This document shows, in pieces, positions 51,656-64,000 of a DNA stretch of 64,000 bases. The notes beneath the pieces were generated by a model. The model saw only the letters and a program-made list of their open reading frames with translations. It searched no databases and was not told the DNA's origin. The stretch lies in contig JAMAHW010000042.1 of the NCBI GenBank assembly GCA_023627715.1, forward strand, positions 62,001-126,000, read 5' to 3'. Position 1 is the first letter of the stretch; each line of letters opens with the position of its first letter. The position numbers were made by a program, and so were the translations under genes. Origin of the DNA: Periconia sp. R9002 (lineage: Eukaryota > Ascomycota > Dothideomycetes > Pleosporales > Periconiaceae).

Positions 51656-53405
51656 CTATTCGCGTTTCTTCAGTTGGACAATGGGACCTTTCCTGTTGGC
51701 GACGAACATATCCCATAGTTGATACTGGTCCGGATTCTGTCGACCAGGCCTTCCATTTTTCTCACCGCCTCCGAGGTTGTTGGTAGGATCTTGCCTGAAT
51801 TGGTACTTGTAGAGTGTTTTGGCCATCACAAGTCGCATTTCAATCCACGCGAGATTTTTCCCCACACAACCGCGAGAACCGAAAGAGAAGGGGAAGAAAG
51901 CGCTCTCAGCCAAAGCGACGCTGTCTGGGGAAGAACCCTCGTTTTCGTCGTCCCTATCAGTCGCAATCCAGCGCTCAGGGCGGAATTTGAACGGCTCTGG
52001 GAAATAGTCCTTGTTGTAGTTCAAGCAGTACATGCCGGCGCTAACCAAGTAGCCTTCCGGGATGTAGTGGCCGCCAACGGTTGTGCCGCCGCTAAGAGCT
52101 ACACGACTTGGCTCGGCGGATACGGGAGGAGTCATGCGCATGGCCTCTTGGATGAAAGCAGTCAAGTACTTGCAAGACATGATTTTGGTCCCAGTTTTGA
52201 TCTCGTCGTAGCTAGAGAATGTAGCGCGGATCTCCCGTGCCAGCTTTTCCTGAATAGCGGGGTTGCGAGCAAGATAGAAGAAGGCAGCTGTGAGAACGAC
52301 AGAAGTCGTATCGGAACCGGCAATGGTCAGCATCTCACACTCACCGAAAAGCTCATGCAAGTCATATCCCTTCTCGCCCGTCTCAGGGTCGACAGCCTTG
52401 AACAGCCAGTAGAAGAAATCTTTGCGTACTTCAGTGTCAGGCTTTTCTAATCGTTCAGTTTCTTCCTGGTCTTTGGTACGGCTGGCGAGACATCCAGCGA
52501 CGAAGTTGCCCCAGTTGGTGACCGCTGGAGGTGACGCAAGCTCAATTAACCGGTCAAGTCCACGTGGTTTTGCCCAAACCCATAACCAGTTCCAAGGACT
52601 GAAACAGATCTGTACACGTCAGTTGGCTGTCAAAATCGACGTCAAGAGAGTTGGCTTACCGGGTGGAGAAGCTCCAAAAAGGTCACCATCATTTCCGGGA
52701 TATGGCGCAAGTCACTGTTGCTCTCTTTCATATCGAAGCATTTACCAAAGCACAAATCACCCAAGATATCAAAGACGAGCCAGTTCATCCAGTCACACAT
52801 GTTCAGTGATTCGGACCACTCTCCATCTTTACCCTTTGGCAACTGGCCAAGAAGCTCCAGCCATCTATCGATGTTGGAGTGCAAAAAAGTTTCTGCAGAA
52901 CGCATTGCTGCTTCCGAGAATGCATAGTTCATAACACGACGTTTGCGTGCATGTTGCTCAACGTTGGTCGAGCTCCAGGTGTTGATGGCGTTGACATGAC
53001 GTGGCCACCCCTTGTAGTAGTCGGATTTCTTTACGTTTCCAGTCGGTCCGAATACCTTCTTGAAAGCGGAGGGGGTGTTGATTAACACACCGTCAGGTCG
53101 ATACCGGAACTCAGGACCTGAAATTCGAGTAAGTTGTTGATTGTAACCTAGTTACCTTCATTGATGAAACACTGACCATATTTCTCTTGCAGGCTATACA
53201 ACCAAAGGTGACGATCGCCAAATCGAGTATTCCACCACGAAGGAAAAACAGAAATCCGTGCCCAGAAGGGACCAGGAAATTTGGCGAGCGGATGGAAGTA
53301 GAGGCGGTAAATAGCTGTGAAAAACACATACGAAAAGCCAAGAGCAACACTCAACCCCAATACATTGGGGTATGAGATACTCTCGGTGAGGTTTGAAGAC
53401 ACCAT
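51656..53405 (-). CDS. Cytochrome P450 monooxygenase
   Basis: Membrane-anchored haem monooxygenase of 546 aa, probably in secondary metabolism or detoxification. Exons on the minus strand are 53405-53177, 53117-52660 and 52609-51656. The N-terminal anchor is VLGLSVALGFSYVFFTAIYRL, followed by HPLAKFPGPFWAR. The I-helix has AGSDTTS, the K-helix ExxR is EAMRM, the PERF-like motif is FRPERW, and the haem loop is FSFGSRGCVGKNLA with the axial cysteine. The first intron uses donor GTCAGT, giving KYGPEFRYRPDG as expected of this family; a GTAACT 27 nt further on would insert nine residues. The second intron is 50 nt (donor GTAAGC). No partner biosynthetic gene lies beside it; the nearest neighbours are a transposon and membrane proteins. 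Substrate unknown. Confidence 0.92.
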
Positions 53406-54575
53406 GGCTTGTCACAGTTCTCCTCCGTTCAAACTGTCAACAACGGTTTCCGGGAAGGAAAGGGCAAAGAAAAAATACTTCTCTGGAGGAGACCCTTTTC
53501 CATGGAAAGGGATAGCCTTCGACAACCGCATCTCCCGCCTTTCATGTGCCGTTCCCCACTTCAACGTCTCAAAACTTTTTGAATCCCTGCCTTTTGGCCC
53601 CCTGCCCATGATCACACCTCTTGCCACCAAATTTGGGCTGCGCCGCTGGACCGCTGCAGAAAACGTTGAAGGTAGGGAGAGCGCTGACTGTAATGTTCAT
53701 GCCTAGACCGACCGAGCATCTAAGTCTTCGTATTCATCAGTCATGACACGCCTGCATCCATGTCCACGTATTGATTTTCAGTGGTATATTTGTTTAGCAC
53801 AAGCAAATCTCAAACATAACATTGGTGTCAGGTCACTCTGTGAACACGGGCCGAGTCTTTTAAGTATAGCGTACTGGTAACCAGGTGGAAGGGGAACAGG
53901 GTATGCAATAAGCGCTGGCCTATGTAGTCAAGATTGGCAGGGCGTTTAGGGTACTTGCTCCCGAAACGGCGACTAATTTCACTGGACGCTCTACTAGTCT
54001 TGGCTGGTCGCTCTACAATGGTAAGCGTACACGAGACTCCTCTTTTAGTCAACATCCAGCTGGTTGACCATGACTTTGTTCCCCACCAAGATACTCATCC
54101 TATTGAATTCGGTAAGGCGAGGGCACCAAAATTCCTTTTAATGGGATGCCGTACTCTGGCGCAGACTTGTGAAGTGTTAGCGAGATAAATCGGCTTTACG
54201 GCGCTGTACAGATAGACCCACCGAAGTCAACCCTCTTTGAGTTAGACGCTTAGCTATCAGCATGCTGCCCCCTAGTTTGCAGCCTGGACGGTGAAGACAC
54301 TTCGGGTTATTTTCATACCATGGTACCTTTGTAGTTGGCAGAGAGACATCGACTCCAACGTTTCAAGCAAATGCTCGGTTTAGGTGGGCAAGAACACCGA
54401 CGAAAGGATCGAACTACAGATTTCTTGCAGTGTTTTTTTCGATGAAGGAACGATAAACGCGCGCTCTGTCCCAGGTAACCCCAATGCACCAACATAAGCT
54501 GCCGGGATATGCGGCATTGATTGGACCAATAGGGACGTTCGCAATTAACGACCACAGGAGCCATCGATTAATCAC
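53406..54575. other. Intergenic, P450 promoter to transposon
   Basis: No supportable gene. The minus-strand open frames between about 54313 and 54614 do not match any family, though the region could be decayed coding DNA into which the transposon inserted. Confidence 0.4.
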
Positions 54576-54577
54576 TA

Positions 54578-54711
54578 CAAGGGGGGTGTAAGTGGGACTA
54601 TCGTTTATAGGCACTCGACGCTAGAGCTATTAAACCGTATTAAAACTGTCTTATATATTAGGTAAGTTATATATAAAAAATAGTACTAAGTATGTTAGGC
54701 GATGCTAATAC
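54578..54711 (+). repeat. Left terminal inverted repeat
   Basis: 134 bp matching the complement of 56158-56280 from the outer CAAGGGGGG to the inner GGCGATGCTAATAC. It has about ten transitions and no transversions against the right copy, and an 11-bp stretch (TAGTACTAAGT region, about 54681-54692) absent from the right copy. Confidence 0.88.
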
Positions 54712-55019
54712 AGTATGTGACGCCCTTTTACTTGAATCACTGCCTTACAACGCTCACCCATATTGCTAGTATATTTCCTAATTTCCTAAGGCGTAATACG
54801 AGCCTACTCCTCCTTAATACATTGCCTCAATTCGTCTTTTATCTTAGGATATCGCTTTCTTACTCTACTCTTCAGTAATCGCTATAGATTTTTAAGAGGA
54901 TTCAAATCAGGCGAGTTTGGTAGCCACTATAGCAAGCGTAAGGCCTTCTTATAGAAGAAACCTCTAGTATTTCTTGCTGTATAGACGCTTGAACTATCCT
55001 GCATGAATATTGACTTGCC
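54705..55019 (-). pseudogene. Degenerate Tc1/mariner transposase, C-terminal part
   Basis: Minus-strand reading shows MQDSSSVYTAR (the QD of the second catalytic aspartate in the DDE domain), then about 34 codons later SPDLNPLKNL, where Tc1-like transposases have SPDLNPIENLW. The catalytic Glu position is Lys here, and the following Trp codon is TAG. Four or more in-frame TAG stops interrupt the frame, mostly where a TGG or CAG/GAG codon is expected, as G:C to A:T transitions produce. The stop TAG (54705-54707) lies inside the TIR. Recognisable sequence ends near 55019, and the N-terminal DNA-binding part is absent. Not functional. Confidence 0.85.
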
Positions 55020-55509
55020 AATACCCACCCAGAAGAGCTCATGCTCCATACGAAAGCTCTCAATATCGGGCCAAACATGCTGGATGTCCGAAATGGAGCA
55101 CTAGTTACCCAGTATTATCAGCCAAGGCGACCCAGGGCGTTTGATGGCTGGCTCTAGATCTTAGGTAGCTGACGAACTATATATAGGCTTTATGGTTAGA
55201 GTAACAGATACCGTATTATAGCTGAATCAAATCTCTTCAACAATCATCCATCATTGGTGGCTCCTGGTGTCAGGCCACCAACAATTGTAAAGATCATGCC
55301 ACCACCACCGACGGTCCACCGGAGCGCAAGGATGATAATGTCTTCACTAGGCTTGATCATGTTCGGAGCAAAACAGAAAGCAAGTCATTTGGTATACTTA
55401 TTGGGACTGGTATCTAGCCAGACCCTCTACACTTGGACAGGTCATCGATATCTTGATACACCAAGCTTGAACGATACCAGAAGTTCATCAAGAAAAACTT
55501 TTTTTAGAC

Positions 55510-56146
55510 ATGTTTATTCCCTTTCTTAACTTCCTAATAATGTTCCCGTTTCCGACAGCAAGTATCGATCTCTCTGCTCTATACAGCGTTCGTCAAGACC
55601 CACGCTACTCCTCCCTCCCCACCTGTCCCCGGTACTGCCTAGATTACGATGGGTACGACTCCGATCTCGAAGGTCTGTACGGATGTGGCACGGTAGTGTA
55701 CAATTTCTGCTTCTGCAGCGAGACTCTTCGATCCAAGGGCTCGTCGTTCATCAGCTCCTGCATCCACACCCGATGTGGATCGGATGATGCGGAGTACCAA
55801 GAGGTAATGAGGTTTTATGACGGTTATTGCGAGTTCACCAACGCCGGTGCTATAACAACAACTAGAACTGGTGGATTAGCAACGAGTTCCACGGCTGGTG
55901 AGTAACTTGGAAATACAAATTGCGGCGCTGATAGGGACAGCAAATACTGGAGGGCGACCAATTCCTACGCAAACTAGCCCGTCTTCGACAGCCAATTCCT
56001 CAGAAGAAGTAACAGCTCAGAAGACTTCAGGTGGAGGGGGGCTGTCGAGGTCAGATAAGATTGCGCTGGGATGTGGACTCAGTGTTCCATTGGCGGGATT
56101 GATCGTTGCTATTTATGGAGTCCAGAGGCATCGAGCGTTGCGCTAG
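55510..56146 (+). CDS. CFEM-like cysteine-rich membrane-anchored protein inside the transposon
   Basis: 197-aa protein from exons 55510-55897 and 55941-56146 (43-nt intron, donor GTGAGT, branch GCTGAT, acceptor CAG, phase 1). A hydrophobic signal peptide (about 1-17) is followed by eight cysteines at 39, 43, 59, 67, 69, 84, 89 and 107. The spacings are x3, x15, x7, x1, x14, x4 and x17, close to the fungal CFEM pattern, including the PTC start and CFC pair. A Thr/Ser-rich stalk (about 112-155), a membrane span (about 168-189) and a basic tail (VQRHRALR) complete it. CFEM proteins act at the cell surface in haem/iron uptake, adhesion or host contact; the role here is inferred. The frame is undamaged although the flanking transposon DNA is RIP-mutated. 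The stop is 11 bp before the right TIR, so the TIR forms its 3' UTR. Confidence 0.82.
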
Positions 56147-56157
56147 TCAGGCTATAC

Positions 56158-56280
56158 GTATTAGCATCGCCTAACAATTTTTTATATATAACTTACCTAA
56201 TATACAAGATAGTTCTAATACAATTTGATAGCTCTAGCGTCGAGTGCCCACAAACAACAGTCCCACTTACACCCCCCTTG
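56158..56280 (-). repeat. Right terminal inverted repeat
   Basis: 123 bp, inverse of 54578-54711. It is less AT-rich than the left copy at several of the transition differences but more so at others, so both copies have been mutated. Confidence 0.88.
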
Positions 56281-56282
56281 TA

Positions 56283-57621
56283 CCACTTCGCGAACCCAGG
56301 CGCGGCTCACAATCAATTGTCCCTGCTGGACGCCTTGTCGTCCTTGTTACTCAAAAAGTACTTGACTGTCGCTTCGTCTTGGAAAATGCAGATCTTGGGA
56401 GCACGAGCAAAAATCCGTGATAGAGCCGGTCAGAAGATGCCGCGGACCGCGTTGGTTGGTGTGGAGCTTTTTGCAGACGAAATCAAGCACACTACTGCAT
56501 TCGCACGGCCTCATTATCCATGATCCTAGAAGTGAGGCACGTGTGAGGACAATTGCAGAAAGATACATCAATTGATGGCGAGCACGTACAAAGCCCAATG
56601 GTCAGTGCTTGTGTTTTTCCATGTCCTTTGCACAACCTGGTCGCATCAATCAGTTACTCGGATTGTCGCTCGATTATTTAGGAGTTCTTCGAGTCAAGCC
56701 ATTTGATACTGATTGACATGTGCCGGAAGCCTTCCGTCTCAACGTTCACTGGCTGCCGTCAGCATCCGCTGCCGTCCCCTCACAACCCACCTCTAAACAT
56801 ACCAAATGGAGAAAAGGAGTGACTTCCCCGTCTGAACGCCCGCAACACAAAACGGAGTTAAACCGAAATTAAACTAGTTTTCCTTATGCGAACAAGGCTC
56901 GACCCGTCCCTGACGACAGCGGCGAAATGTCAACGAAGCACTAGCAGCTTATTTTGTAACGTCCCGCTTTCGGCCCGGGAAAGGCAAATACCTCCGACGA
57001 GCGAAGTTGGACGTCAGCAACGTCTTGGGTGAAAAATTTCTCGTCGGGCTTCTGGATGTGGTATAATCAGGCACGAGTGACCTAGGATGTGTCTTGTCTA
57101 CGAGCCAAATTTCCCGCACGAGACTGGACAAGACACGCTACTTTGTCACTAGTATTCCATACCCATGTCGAAAACATTGAAAATGCCAATCCCCCAAAAG
57201 GAGCTACCAACGTACTATGCTCAACATGCTCAACATGTAGGGATTAAAGCAAAGTAGGTACATGATCTCCACAGTCAGAGCCGCACAGTCGGAATCATAA
57301 GAGCATGCATCGTTTCTCCCCTGATCTCACTGCTCCTCGAAAAGCCCATGCAAGCAACATGAATCCCAGACACTTTCCTCCTGAAAGGTCATAGCGAGTT
57401 CCCAGTGCGTGGGTTAGCAGAACGAGCAAGTTCGTCTGATGACACGAATATGAAGGACCTTTTGCCACTACCTTCGCCTTCCATTTCTTGAGTCAATCTG
57501 TGACTTCCAGTTCCATCTTCTTTCTTTAGCGTTTTAACCTTATCTTCCTGGGTGAATGCTTCCGTTCTTTGCGAATTCGTTCAGTTAGCAGTATCTGTGG
57601 AGCTACCGGGTAGCTGCGAAG
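56283..57621. other. Intergenic, transposon flank to rhodopsin-domain gene
   Basis: About 1.3 kb without a supportable gene. A minus-strand open frame at about 56347-56598 has no family resemblance. The last 150 bp precede the next ATG and are T/C-rich. Confidence 0.4.
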
Positions 57622-59078
57622 ATGGCTCCTTTAGTGAACCCCGACGAGAGCGTGTGAGTGTTCTATTGCAATATTCCTGAAACATCTTCAAGGACGTCCT
57701 TTGTTAGCAGTTCATTTACAACTGCTGGCCTCAAGGTTATAGCTAGGAGTTGAGTGCTAATGATGAGGTGATCTAGTGAGGCCTTTCGTCGTCGTCTCGA
57801 TGGAGTTGCGTACGCAACTTATATCATCGTCATGCTCGTTGTGCCCCTCAAAGTCTGGTGTCGCAAGTCGGCGGGCGGATGGGCGAACGTGGGCATGGAT
57901 GACTGGGCCACTTTGGTTGCGCTCGGGGTTGCCAATGCATTCTTCTATGTATGCATCATAGGTATAATATCACCGCAACCTTGAGTCTTTCGAAGTGGTT
58001 GTTAACCATACGATAGATATGCGAAAGTCACTCGGGCTCCATATCACGACGATCGAAGACCCCTTCCAGATCATGGACTTCCTGAAGAGTATTTACATTG
58101 CGAATATGCTATACACATGCTCGATTACAGCCATCAAGCTTTCCATTCTCGGATTCTATTGGAGGTTGTTTTCACTCAAAGCCCGAGTTGTCATCTACGC
58201 TACCCTGGGCATGGTTATTGCATGGTGGATTTCGATTGTAAGAGCACACTTGAAAGGAAAATTCCATACGCTGTATGGTACTAACTCCTTAATAGATGGT
58301 GCTGTGCATCTGGAACTGTGATCCTATCCGGGCGGCTTGGGACATAACCATCACAACTGGAAAGTGCATCAAGACACGATCGATTTACCTCGGCGGCTCC
58401 GTTCCCAACGTCATCCTCGATAGCTGGATCGTCCTCATCCCTCTCCCGTACGTTTGGAGGTTGCACGCTCCCATTGGACAGCGTCTCCTTCTCGCCGGCA
58501 TGTTTGCACTTGGTATCTTCATTTGCGTCGTTTCCCTCGTGCGCCTCATCATTTTCTTGAACATCCCCATCACCACCGCAGGTGATGTGACGTACAACTT
58601 CCGCGAAATCATCGTGTGGTCCATCGTGGAAGTCAACATTGGCCTCACGTGCGCATGCCTGCCCAGTCTGAAGCCCGCGCTTGCCATGCTGGGACTGAAC
58701 AAGTTGTTCTTCTCACTCACCAACTCGCGTCCCTCCAACGCAAAGACACCCGAGCCCGGCATTTCCGAGACGCCCCTTTCCGAAGGCTCCAGGAGGCCAC
58801 GCAAGAAGGGCTCTACTGGAGGCATGTTCTCCAGTCTCGCTGGCTTGACCAAACTTGGCAGTGAAGAAGACGGATTCAAGATCATGGACAACGATAGTGA
58901 ACGCCTTCCTGGCCGAGGAGGCACCAATATCGAATTAACACGGATAAGTAACGACTCGGGCTCTCAGAGATCCCGGGACAATGGACGCCATGGGGGCGGT
59001 ATGAGCGGCATGCATGGCATCACCGTGCAGAAAGATTGGTCTGTCCTGGTGGATGAGAAGCGGGACAGCAGGCCTTAA
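57622..59078 (+). CDS. Fungal rhodopsin-domain integral membrane protein (SAT4/PTH11-related)
   Basis: Predicted multi-pass plasma-membrane protein of 406 aa from exons 57622-57653, 57777-57961, 58017-58237 and 58296-59078. The intron donors are GTGAGT, GTATAA and GTAAGA, and phases agree. The N-terminus MAPLVNPDES leads to RRRLDGVAYATYIIVMLVVP, then WANVGMDDWATLVALG, the usual start of this domain. Further helices include YTCSITAIKLSILGFYWRLF, a conserved CIWNCDPIRAAWD between helices, and VNIGLTCACLPSLKPALA near the end. A long cytosolic tail (about 300-406) is Ser/Gly/Arg-rich. Some relatives act as surface sensors (Pth11) in plant pathogens; function here is unknown. The acceptor of intron 2 has an alternative 22 bp upstream. 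Confidence 0.85.
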
Positions 59079-60737: not shown

Positions 60738-63700
60738 GTGAGGGGTTTTGGATCGTGTATTAGTATGTGTATTTTTAGTGGGGGTTGGGGGTTGGTTCGG
60801 TGTTTTGAAGGTTTTGTGGGATATAAGGGTCTCTGGGAAGTGATGTGTTCTAATATCAATATCTGTAACTATCTATCCCCAAACGCTGTTAGACTCCTTA
60901 CCTCACCATCCATAAGCCTAAACTCGTACATGAATAACCTGAGACATCCAAACCACTACAATCATTACAACATAGCAAACCGCAATTGACTAATTTCAAG
61001 ACTGCACTAGTATCTAATTGCGTACCAAACACCGCATTTTCATGAGAATAATTCACTATCCTCCCCCCTTCCAACGGAAAACCCAAACAACATCATGTCC
61101 CTCTTCACCCTTCTCACCCTCTCTCCTATTCCTACACGCATCCCCTCCAAAATCTCCACCAAACTTGCCTAAAAAGAAGTACATCATCTCCTAAAACTCC
61201 ACCTTACCTACCTACCTCGAACTACCTTTCTCACAAATAAGTCAAACTATCTTATACACACCCCCCTTCGTACCTTTTCCAAGCCTCACATACTAAAAAG
61301 TACGCAATTCACCCCCTTGGAGAACGAACCGGGGATGTAATAAAAGAGATCTTTTTTCTGTTTACTTTTCTTTCGCATAGATAAGACTTAACTTGTTTGC
61401 TTAACCACCGTTCTGAACTTCCTTGGGGATGAATACGTATTTTTTTCCAAGAAATTTTGGAAGAGGGGGTTTGGGACTAGGAGTATATATATTTAGGTTT
61501 ACAAAGTTCGTGTGTTTTTTCTATTACTCGTACAGCTCCTTTTTTCTCTCTCTCTCTCTCTTTTGCTTATTGTGAATACATCAAGAGGTGGACAACCATC
61601 CTATAGTTTTTGTCTTGATAAACTGCCGAGGGAAAAGAAGAAAGTGGATTTCCACCTCGACAGACCAAAAAAAAACCCCCCAAAACAAAGAAACCAATAA
61701 AAATCCAGGGAGCCTTCGACACCATACCATCTCACCCACTATCCCCCCCTCCCCCCTTCTATCCAACCCCTCACAATCCTACCTCTAACCCCCCCCCCCC
61801 CCAAAAAAAAAATACCACCCACACCAAAAATTCACCCAAACGCAAACTTCCTACCCAGCGAAAAAGAAGCGGGCTGTACATTAATCAATCACTCAATCAG
61901 CTAAACTAAAACACCGGCCCTGTGTTCCACCTTATACCATCCGTATCTATATCTAGGCAAGTTAGGTCTATAAAACAAGAAACCGGAGAAAAAACGTGAT
62001 TGAAGAACATCGGTTGTCTTGTATCCCCCCCGCCCCATTCCCTCTAGTCTTGTCTTGTCTTGTCGTGTTGTGTTTTGTTTTTGGAGTTACGAAGGGTGGT
62101 AAGAAGGAAGGGGTTGGTATGTTTGAGCTTTTCTACTCCTCTTTTTTTTTCTATTTTTTAGGAGGAAGGGGTGGAGGTAGAGGGGAAAAGGGGGGGTGGT
62201 ATGTGTGAATAGTTGGATGAATGAATGGATAACGTAGATTGCCCTGGCTGTTATGATATAGTGTGGTATGGTACTTAGCTGGTCTTAGGAAAACCCAGCC
62301 ATCGTAGTTTGATAAGGTTCTCCTTCGTGGGGTTTTGGTATCCAAGACGTGCCCTGCGCACCCTCTTTTTTTATTGATTTTTTTGTATCCAGGTAGGACG
62401 GATACCAAACTGTAACACACAAAAGAAAAAACATTAGATAGGACGGTGTGTGTGGCTGTGGAATTTAGATTGAAGAGTTTGAGTATGAGCGTTGAGTAGG
62501 TACATTGCGTAGGAGCAGAGGAAAATAGATAAGGAAGGCGTGGGGTTTTGTGGTGGTAATTAGGGGTTGGGCGGTTTAAGGGGTGGTTGATTAGGGGTTG
62601 AATAGTAGAACGGCATGGAAAAAGGCAATGTAACGGGGTGTGTGCAGGATATTATTTGCGACAAGTAGGTTTTATAGAGATGGGGAGATTTCATCTAGGA
62701 GAGTTTTGATTCTGGTTTTGGGTGAGGGGAATATAATTAGATTTTTTGGTGGATTTTCGGCTTGTTACGGAATCGAGGGTGAGAGTGTACCTACCCATAT
62801 ATCGGATATACGCGTTGACACGTCACGGAAAAGAAAGCGACCTAGGTTTAAGCTTGAGATCCATCTACCGGTCTATTTTGACATGCGTTCTCCGTCTACT
62901 AACGAACGGGAAATAGTACGTATTTTCTTATCTTTGTTTCCCTTGCATGGAAAGGTCTGAATTACAGGATGAGGGTAGGATATGTCGATTGCGTTGCGTG
63001 CTTAGGGATGGGTTCACGTTTATGAAGTGTGTGATAGGTGGGAGGTACTGACGGAAGGGTTTTAGGGGGAAGAGGTATATGTATATGTATGGGATGGGGT
63101 GGATGTGTGGGAGAAGATGTAAGGGTTCGAGGTTTCGTGCTGCGATGCGTCCTGTGAAGGGGTAGAGAGGGGGTGTGGTGGGGGTGCCGGCGTTGGGGTT
63201 TGGGATTGGGTTAGGAATTGGAGATGTTAGTTTTGTTAGATGCTGGGCTTGTGAGATGCAGTGCATCGTACTTTGTTGAGCGTGTAGAATCTGGTTGGTC
63301 AAGGAATTAAAGGTTTGTGAGAAGATAGATGGATATCTTCCTTCGTGTTATTCGATTGCTTATATGACGGTGCTACGTTGCATTGAAGATTTGGGGAAAG
63401 AGGGGAAACTGTGATAGTTGGTAGATGAGGGCATCAAGACTGATTGATCCTTGGTTAATCTGTCCCAACGAGATCACGTCAACTGCCGTTTTTTGGGGGC
63501 GGTTGAATCAGTCGTAGATAGCGGGGGACTGCAGATGTTGCTCCGTGGCAACTGTGGGCGGAGATCGCGGCTTTTGTCTTCTCCTACTGGGGAATACGAA
63601 CCATACACGAAAAGTTTTCCCAAGTGCGTTGCCGATCGGTAGGGTATGCAACGAGTTTCCCGAGTCTTGCATGCCGCTTTAGATTACCATTGTACTTGGG

Positions 63701-64000
63701 GACAAGAGGCAGTACTTGCTGTTTTGTTGTTTTGGTGCGTTTGCTATGAAGTAAATTCTAGATTAGTGAGATGAGCAGCCTCACAGTTACTTTATCGAAG
63801 CTATTCAGCTTAACTATAAATATTTTAAAGAGCTCACTTCAGTGCTGCGGCCGTTTAATATGCCATTTCGTGTATGCCGGTGCGACAGTAAGCACGGTTT
63901 TTGCATTCCACCGAATTCTACATGCATGTCATTTTCGTCTGAGGCTGAAGTTGAAATTTGCTCGCGGTCAACGATTTTGGGATTGACGTTACTTCACTTC
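60738..64000. other. Gene-empty low-complexity region at window end
   Basis: About 3.3 kb with no supportable gene on either strand. It includes a CT repeat (about 61542-61561), a C15/A10 homopolymer pair (about 61788-61812), TCTTG repeats (about 62047-62066), an ATATGT repeat (about 63076-63090) and long G/T-rich stretches between about 62090 and 63260. Short open frames here follow these composition shifts. Confidence 0.55.

Follow-up and report, generated by a model that had tools for sequence, protein, structure and literature searches.

Architecture of the locus

We analysed a 64,000-nt window of the genome of the fungus Periconia sp. R9002 (C42:62001-126000; the home assembly comprises 42.9 Mb in 267 contigs), which contains a Tc1/mariner transposon relic with a two-exon, non-transposon gene between its terminal inverted repeats (TIRs). 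The element is built from the following parts, given in window coordinates; P0001 to P0003 are proteins homologous to the enclosed gene, P0001 being encoded on a metagenome contig of 12 kb, and P0004 and P0005 are transposases.

54576-54716, plus strand: left TIR, with TA at 54576-54577 (gapped alignment with the right TIR, BLAST)
54708-55115, minus strand: Tc1-type (DDE_3) transposase remnant, final 136 codons (tblastn of P0004 and P0005)
55116-56153: enclosed non-transposon DNA, standing in place of about 60% of the transposase gene (P0004 residues 1-208 of 344)
55510-55897, plus strand: exon 1, with a hydrophobic signal-peptide-like start and all eight cysteines (homology to P0001, P0002 and P0003)
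55898-55934, plus strand: predicted intron, from a GTGAGT donor to an AG
55935-56146, plus strand: exon 2, with a Ser/Thr-rich linker, an SRSDKIALG motif and a hydrophobic segment; stop codon at 56144-56146
56154-56282, minus strand: right TIR, with TA at 56281-56282 (repeat search, gapped alignment, BLAST)

Terminal inverted repeats

A repeat search of positions 53500-57500 yielded a single strong inverted pair (109 nt ungapped, 90% complementary) and one other, weak pair of 26 nt. By gapped alignment, the arms of the strong pair measure 141 nt (left) and 129 nt (right) including the TA with which both start. BLAST aligns them with 84% identity at an E value of 1.7e-38, a match far beyond chance. 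An earlier note on this DNA had described inverted repeats with TA at their outer edges, enclosing a transposase remnant and a gene; this arrangement is confirmed, and the pair itself is real, whereas the repeat lengths then given (134 and 123 bp) have to be replaced by those reported here.

The two arms differ by ten substitutions, all of them transitions, by an 11-nt indel and by a 1-nt indel; an alternative placement of the gap produces an eleventh mismatch, A/T, adjoining the indel. At six of the ten transitions one arm has TpA where the other has TpG or CpA, and the left arm carries five of these six TpA differences if TpA is taken as the derived state. As a clock for the age of the element, TIR divergence was rejected, since the substitutions between the arms appear to be driven by repeat-induced point mutation (RIP).

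When the left arm (141 nt) was compared with the whole genome by BLAST, only the two arms of the element were returned. The 21-mer TIR tip, with three mismatches allowed, occurred at four places in the genome versus one in the control, and a degenerate tip pattern (≤3 mismatches) at four places versus none. The latter four are both arms of the element and the two ends of a 141-bp miniature inverted-repeat transposable element (MITE), the sole other genome site with this pattern:

C39:318348-318488 (about 1383-1523 of locus L008): MITE in an AT-rich stretch, with TIR tips TAYAAGGGGGGTGTAAG as in the element

On the element's own contig, the pattern scan finds just the two TIR tips. Two tip matches were discarded as further copies: the 21-mer match on C39 proved to be one end of the MITE, and the match on C4 has no partner inverted repeat of at least 24 nt within its 3-kb locus. 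The search for other TIR copies that the earlier note had proposed added just the C39 MITE.

Transposase remnant

By tblastn, the remnant is 63% identical to P0004 (E 2e-52) and 68% identical to P0005 (E 2e-54). It corresponds to residues 209-344 of P0004 (344 aa), and the homology ends at position 55115. DDE_3-type homology, here over 136 codons, and TIRs with flanking TA are features of Tc1/mariner elements, and the locus shows both. P0004 and P0005 carry the DDE_3 domain; the remnant scores 22.0 bits, under the Pfam cut-off of 28.6. The catalytic arrangement of P0004 is DD34E (counted from the alignment). The remnant keeps the second catalytic Asp (in MQD) and has Lys at the third catalytic position, and five in-frame stops interrupt it, so that the DDE/D triad is not intact. 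Every one of these stops is TAG, at positions where P0005 has Trp (four) or Gln (one). The first-Asp region and the transposase N-terminus were found neither in 55090-56150 nor, by tblastn, in the rest of the window. The stop-filled C-terminus noticed previously is real and longer than claimed, and the replacement of the N-terminal part by a gene of opposite direction is probable.

A longer transposase was considered and rejected: MAFFT aligned residues farther upstream, but frameshift-aware alignment of the N-terminal parts of P0004 and P0005 with 55090-56150 gave nothing above 20 shuffled proteins each (P0005, 48 versus a shuffle maximum of 48; P0004, 36 versus a shuffle mean of 38 and a maximum of 55). 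Judged by its sequence, the transposase is dead and the element a non-autonomous remnant that cannot move itself. The home genome yielded no cognate transposase; its 11 other transposase matches at E ≤0.01 show 28-44% identity to the remnant. An apparently complete relative is located as follows:

C148:28442-28732 (L004/L017): element of Tc1/mariner type, about 1.2 kb long; its open frame of 359 aa shares 43% protein identity with the remnant

In this element the stop codon lies inside the inner TIR edge, as in the window element, and the right repeat of the latter therefore resembles an ordinary 5′ TIR. Two further Tc1/mariner transposase frames, similar to each other, 381 aa long and free of stops, were also observed (C162:27210-27506, L015; C142:23659-23958, L016); no inverted repeats of at least 24 nt surround either of them within the 3.3 kb examined.

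The enclosed gene

The two-exon gene appears intact from its sequence alone and is oppositely oriented to the transposase; its stop codon is separated from the right TIR by a gap of 7 bp. P0001 and P0002 match both exons in order, and P0003 matches exon 1 alone. Splicing to the predicted acceptor (55934) gives a product of 199 aa, and an alternative acceptor AG that ends at 55940 gives one of 197 aa; without splicing, the frame runs into a stop just past the donor and the hydrophobic anchor is lost. The product is probably secreted and membrane-anchored, with a hydrophobic, probably transmembrane segment, and the gene may still be expressed, in which case the right TIR would form its 3′ untranslated region. 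Two minus-strand frames within the enclosed DNA have no Pfam match.

The eight cysteines (C39, C43, C59, C67, C69, C84, C89 and C107) are aligned across all four sequences compared and follow a CFEM-like order; two of their spacings are slightly off the CFEM consensus, and its Asp is absent. The product scores 15.9 bits against PF05730, versus a curated cut-off of 22. This family is not listed for P0001, P0002 or P0003 at E values up to 1, and P0001 and P0003 list Mid2, under its cut-off. The complete, spliced eight-cysteine gene postulated before is upheld by its open frame and by homologues over both exons, while the CFEM label is weak: the protein is CFEM-like, not a proven CFEM protein. 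A single match of the product to a solved-structure profile, PsaK (E 0.0018), was regarded as low-complexity and set aside.

Predicted proteins were searched for homologues of the gene, and none from Periconia was among the matches listed. As a control we used the P450 gene beside the element, whose product shares 92% identity with a protein of Periconia macrospinosa and 83% with one of P. digitata, so that the collection searched holds at least one protein of each species. Taken by itself, this single gene points to a probable relative of Periconia (Periconiaceae, Pleosporales) as the source of the window. With one control gene and predicted proteins, the missing match suggests that both species lack the enclosed gene or that it is unannotated there.

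Search for a donor and for further copies

No match to the DNA of 55116-56153 elsewhere in the 42.9-Mb assembly was among the matches listed, and no second copy of the composite element was found there. At the protein level, the sole other home-genome match at E ≤0.01 is C23:308954-309310 (31% identity, E 0.007). The 305-aa open frame at this place (L010), itself related to P0001 (E 4e-10) and P0002 (E 6e-12), is possibly a native member of the gene's eight-cysteine family. A native CFEM paralogue had been suggested as a donor to look for; this frame, the only candidate, was rejected as too distant. The 22 matches recorded for PF05730 do not include the window gene. The TIR pattern, P0001 and P0004 had no matches in viral contigs. 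The donor could have been lost or could reside in another species.

RIP-like composition

RIP prefers CpA. Its signature consists of C:G to T:A transitions, and thresholds for RIP indices have been published (PMC4188875; here and below, statements about published work refer to the available parts of the sources). In that study the Tc1-Mariner elements of Sclerotinia lack a RIP-like bias, and the words capture and cargo are absent from its text as available. In the window, the left TIR and transposase together (54576-55115) have a TpA/ApT ratio of 1.34 and a composite RIP index of 0.45, which no more than 0.8% of 1223 window tiles attain; the index of the right TIR is 0.74 (reached by 4.0% of 1239 tiles). 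The enclosed DNA has an index of -0.28 (23.2% of 1203 tiles reach it) and the gene one of -0.15 (16.2% of 1219).

Origin of the composite element

One TIR pair, one transposase remnant and, within the pair, one intact non-transposon gene make up the locus, and nothing was found that would assign one TIR or the other to a full-length element of its own. The simplest history is that of one Tc1/mariner element with a reverse-oriented, gene-bearing replacement. We give a probability of about 0.7 to the reading that the locus is a single-copy, now immobile Tc1/mariner relic whose transposase gene lost about 60% of its length, from the 5′ end, to a replacement by gene-bearing DNA. The boundaries of homology, not the RIP indices, are what point to this composite origin. 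Some 1.04 kb of non-transposon DNA with the oppositely oriented two-exon gene would have replaced the 5′ transposase part and left the ends of the element intact. A break within the element may have been filled with gene-bearing DNA through template switching or through end joining (gap filling), either in place or ahead of a last transposition; RIP-like C-to-T mutation would then probably have degraded the transposon parts, whereas the gene kept its open frame. Host-gene capture, as first proposed from the sequence, is plausible, though without a donor: the single TIR pair, the remnant and the gene fit it, whereas the one distant protein match on C23 is all that was found in the genome as a source.

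Several observations weigh against this history. Template-switching capture copies a donor, whereas no donor copy was found in the assembly; movement of the whole composite is not attested by a further copy; two separate insertions would leave TA on the outer edges just as well; and there is a slight chance of mis-assembly. The contrast in RIP indices is also unclean. On its own, the transposase part has an index of 0.00, which 13.8% of 1229 tiles attain, exon 1 (55504-55899) has one of +0.15 and passes both published thresholds, left-flank DNA (53751-54250) has one of +0.23, and the TIRs may be AT-rich by nature. We therefore gave the types of stop codon and the TIR transitions more weight than the indices.

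Among the alternatives, the one that fares best assumes a resident gene flanked by two oppositely oriented insertions of the same element, each of which has lost its inner part. TA would then stand on each outer edge, as after any insertion, the absence of a donor copy would be natural for a gene that never moved, and the ten transitions and the 11-nt indel between the arms would fit separate insertions. This course of events requires two insertions plus two deletions, however, and it would leave on the right a bare TIR only 7 bp from the stop codon. Moreover, the family is otherwise nearly absent from the genome (four tip matches altogether), and no match to the gene was listed from the two Periconia species whose proteins match the P450 control, a single control gene. 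We consider two insertions unlikely.

It is very improbable that a later accident, that is an unrelated insertion or rearrangement, put a gene fragment into an already dead element that was never a carrier. The enclosed DNA as a whole lacks the RIP-like bias of the left TIR and transposase, and the hexamer GTATTA stands in direct orientation at both inner junctions (55112 and 56158), as a target duplication would. Chance alone, however, would produce about 1.4 direct matches of six nt between the two zones compared (an estimate for equal base frequencies), and no repeat longer than 6 nt was found between them; unique sequence without RIP is expected in either order of events, and exon 1 is not clean. 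An assembly chimera or chance juxtaposition is hardly credible, given the strength of the TIR match and the position of the element inside a 307-kb contig, between a P450 gene and a fungal rhodopsin-domain gene.

Relation to known gene-bearing elements

The window element is a solitary, dead example of a kind with published precedent in the same fungal order, the Pleosporales, to which Pyrenophora belongs. In Pyrenophora tritici-repentis, an open reading frame is sequestered between Tc1/Mariner TIRs in a family of 46 members (Manning et al. 2013, PMC3538342). Host order, type of TIR and an extra open reading frame between the TIRs are shared with the window element, which differs in that it is a single copy, carries a CFEM-like gene and keeps the dead tail of a transposase. 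In rice and maize, Pack-Mariners have been annotated, mostly at low copy number (PMC8903248). In view of these cases, capture is less unusual for fungal Tc1/mariner elements than the earlier note had supposed. Its suggestion that the cargo could spread in copy number is not upheld: a second copy was not found, no other transposase match exceeds about 44% identity, and the element's own transposase is dead.

Like plant Pack-TYPE elements and Pack-Mariners, the window element is non-autonomous and has coding DNA enclosed by its TIRs; the plant elements, in contrast, are annotated in large numbers, and a proposed model for their origin is neighbouring (tandem) insertion followed by re-mobilisation (PMC8903248), whereas no inner TIR trace was seen in the window element. 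With animal Pack-TIRs it shares captured non-transposon DNA within a TIR element. For those elements parental copies have been identified, many of them on the chromosome of the element itself, whereas no parental copy was found here; their single-copy cases are attributed to transposition-independent gap filling, and the main text as available does not use the word mariner (PMC8277862). Neither gap filling nor neighbouring insertion with re-mobilisation is shown for the window element, for which neither a donor nor a second copy was found. Non-transposon coding DNA lies inside one TIR pair, as in a Pack-TIR; amplification of the composite by transposition (transduplication) is not seen in the 42.9 Mb, and since a parental copy was not found in the home assembly, we class the element as Pack-like rather than as a proven Pack-TIR.

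Terminal repeats also enclose a non-transposon gene in ToxhAT and in the histone H3-like hAT elements of Pleosporales (PMC6737239, PMC12506042, PMC3538342). ToxhAT is of hAT type, measures about 14 kb and is reported to move between species, whereas the window element is a Tc1/mariner element of 1.7 kb with no evidence of transfer. In the available text of PMC4905642, 'captured' mostly denotes a gene between two neighbouring transposable elements, and in that of PMC10853768 Pack-TYPE appears in a reference only. Among the titles and abstract openings listed in our literature searches, none disclosed a Tc1/mariner element with a CFEM gene inside it; as evidence of absence this is weak. The same searches leave the impression that individual descriptions of fungal gene-bearing TIR elements are rare.

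The value of the element lies in a transposon part that has decayed around a gene that is open and has no listed match from two Periconia species. An empty site, if found, would date the gain of the gene and would indicate that a small Tc1/mariner element, besides hAT, Helitron and Starship elements, can bring a complete fungal gene. That the gene came from another fungus as cargo of this sub-2-kb Tc1/mariner element, with RIP-like decay killing the vehicle and selection keeping the cargo, seems to us distinctly doubtful.

Surroundings of the element

The genes on the two sides of the element within its contig are the following:

51659-52618, minus strand: P450 fragment, left of the element
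58296-59075: fungal rhodopsin-domain frame, right of the element

Farther to the right, at positions 61001-64000, the only repeats found are of 20-30 nt, and the GC skew switches sharply there, from -0.42 (61-62 kb) to +0.38 (62-63 kb) and +0.35 (63-64 kb).
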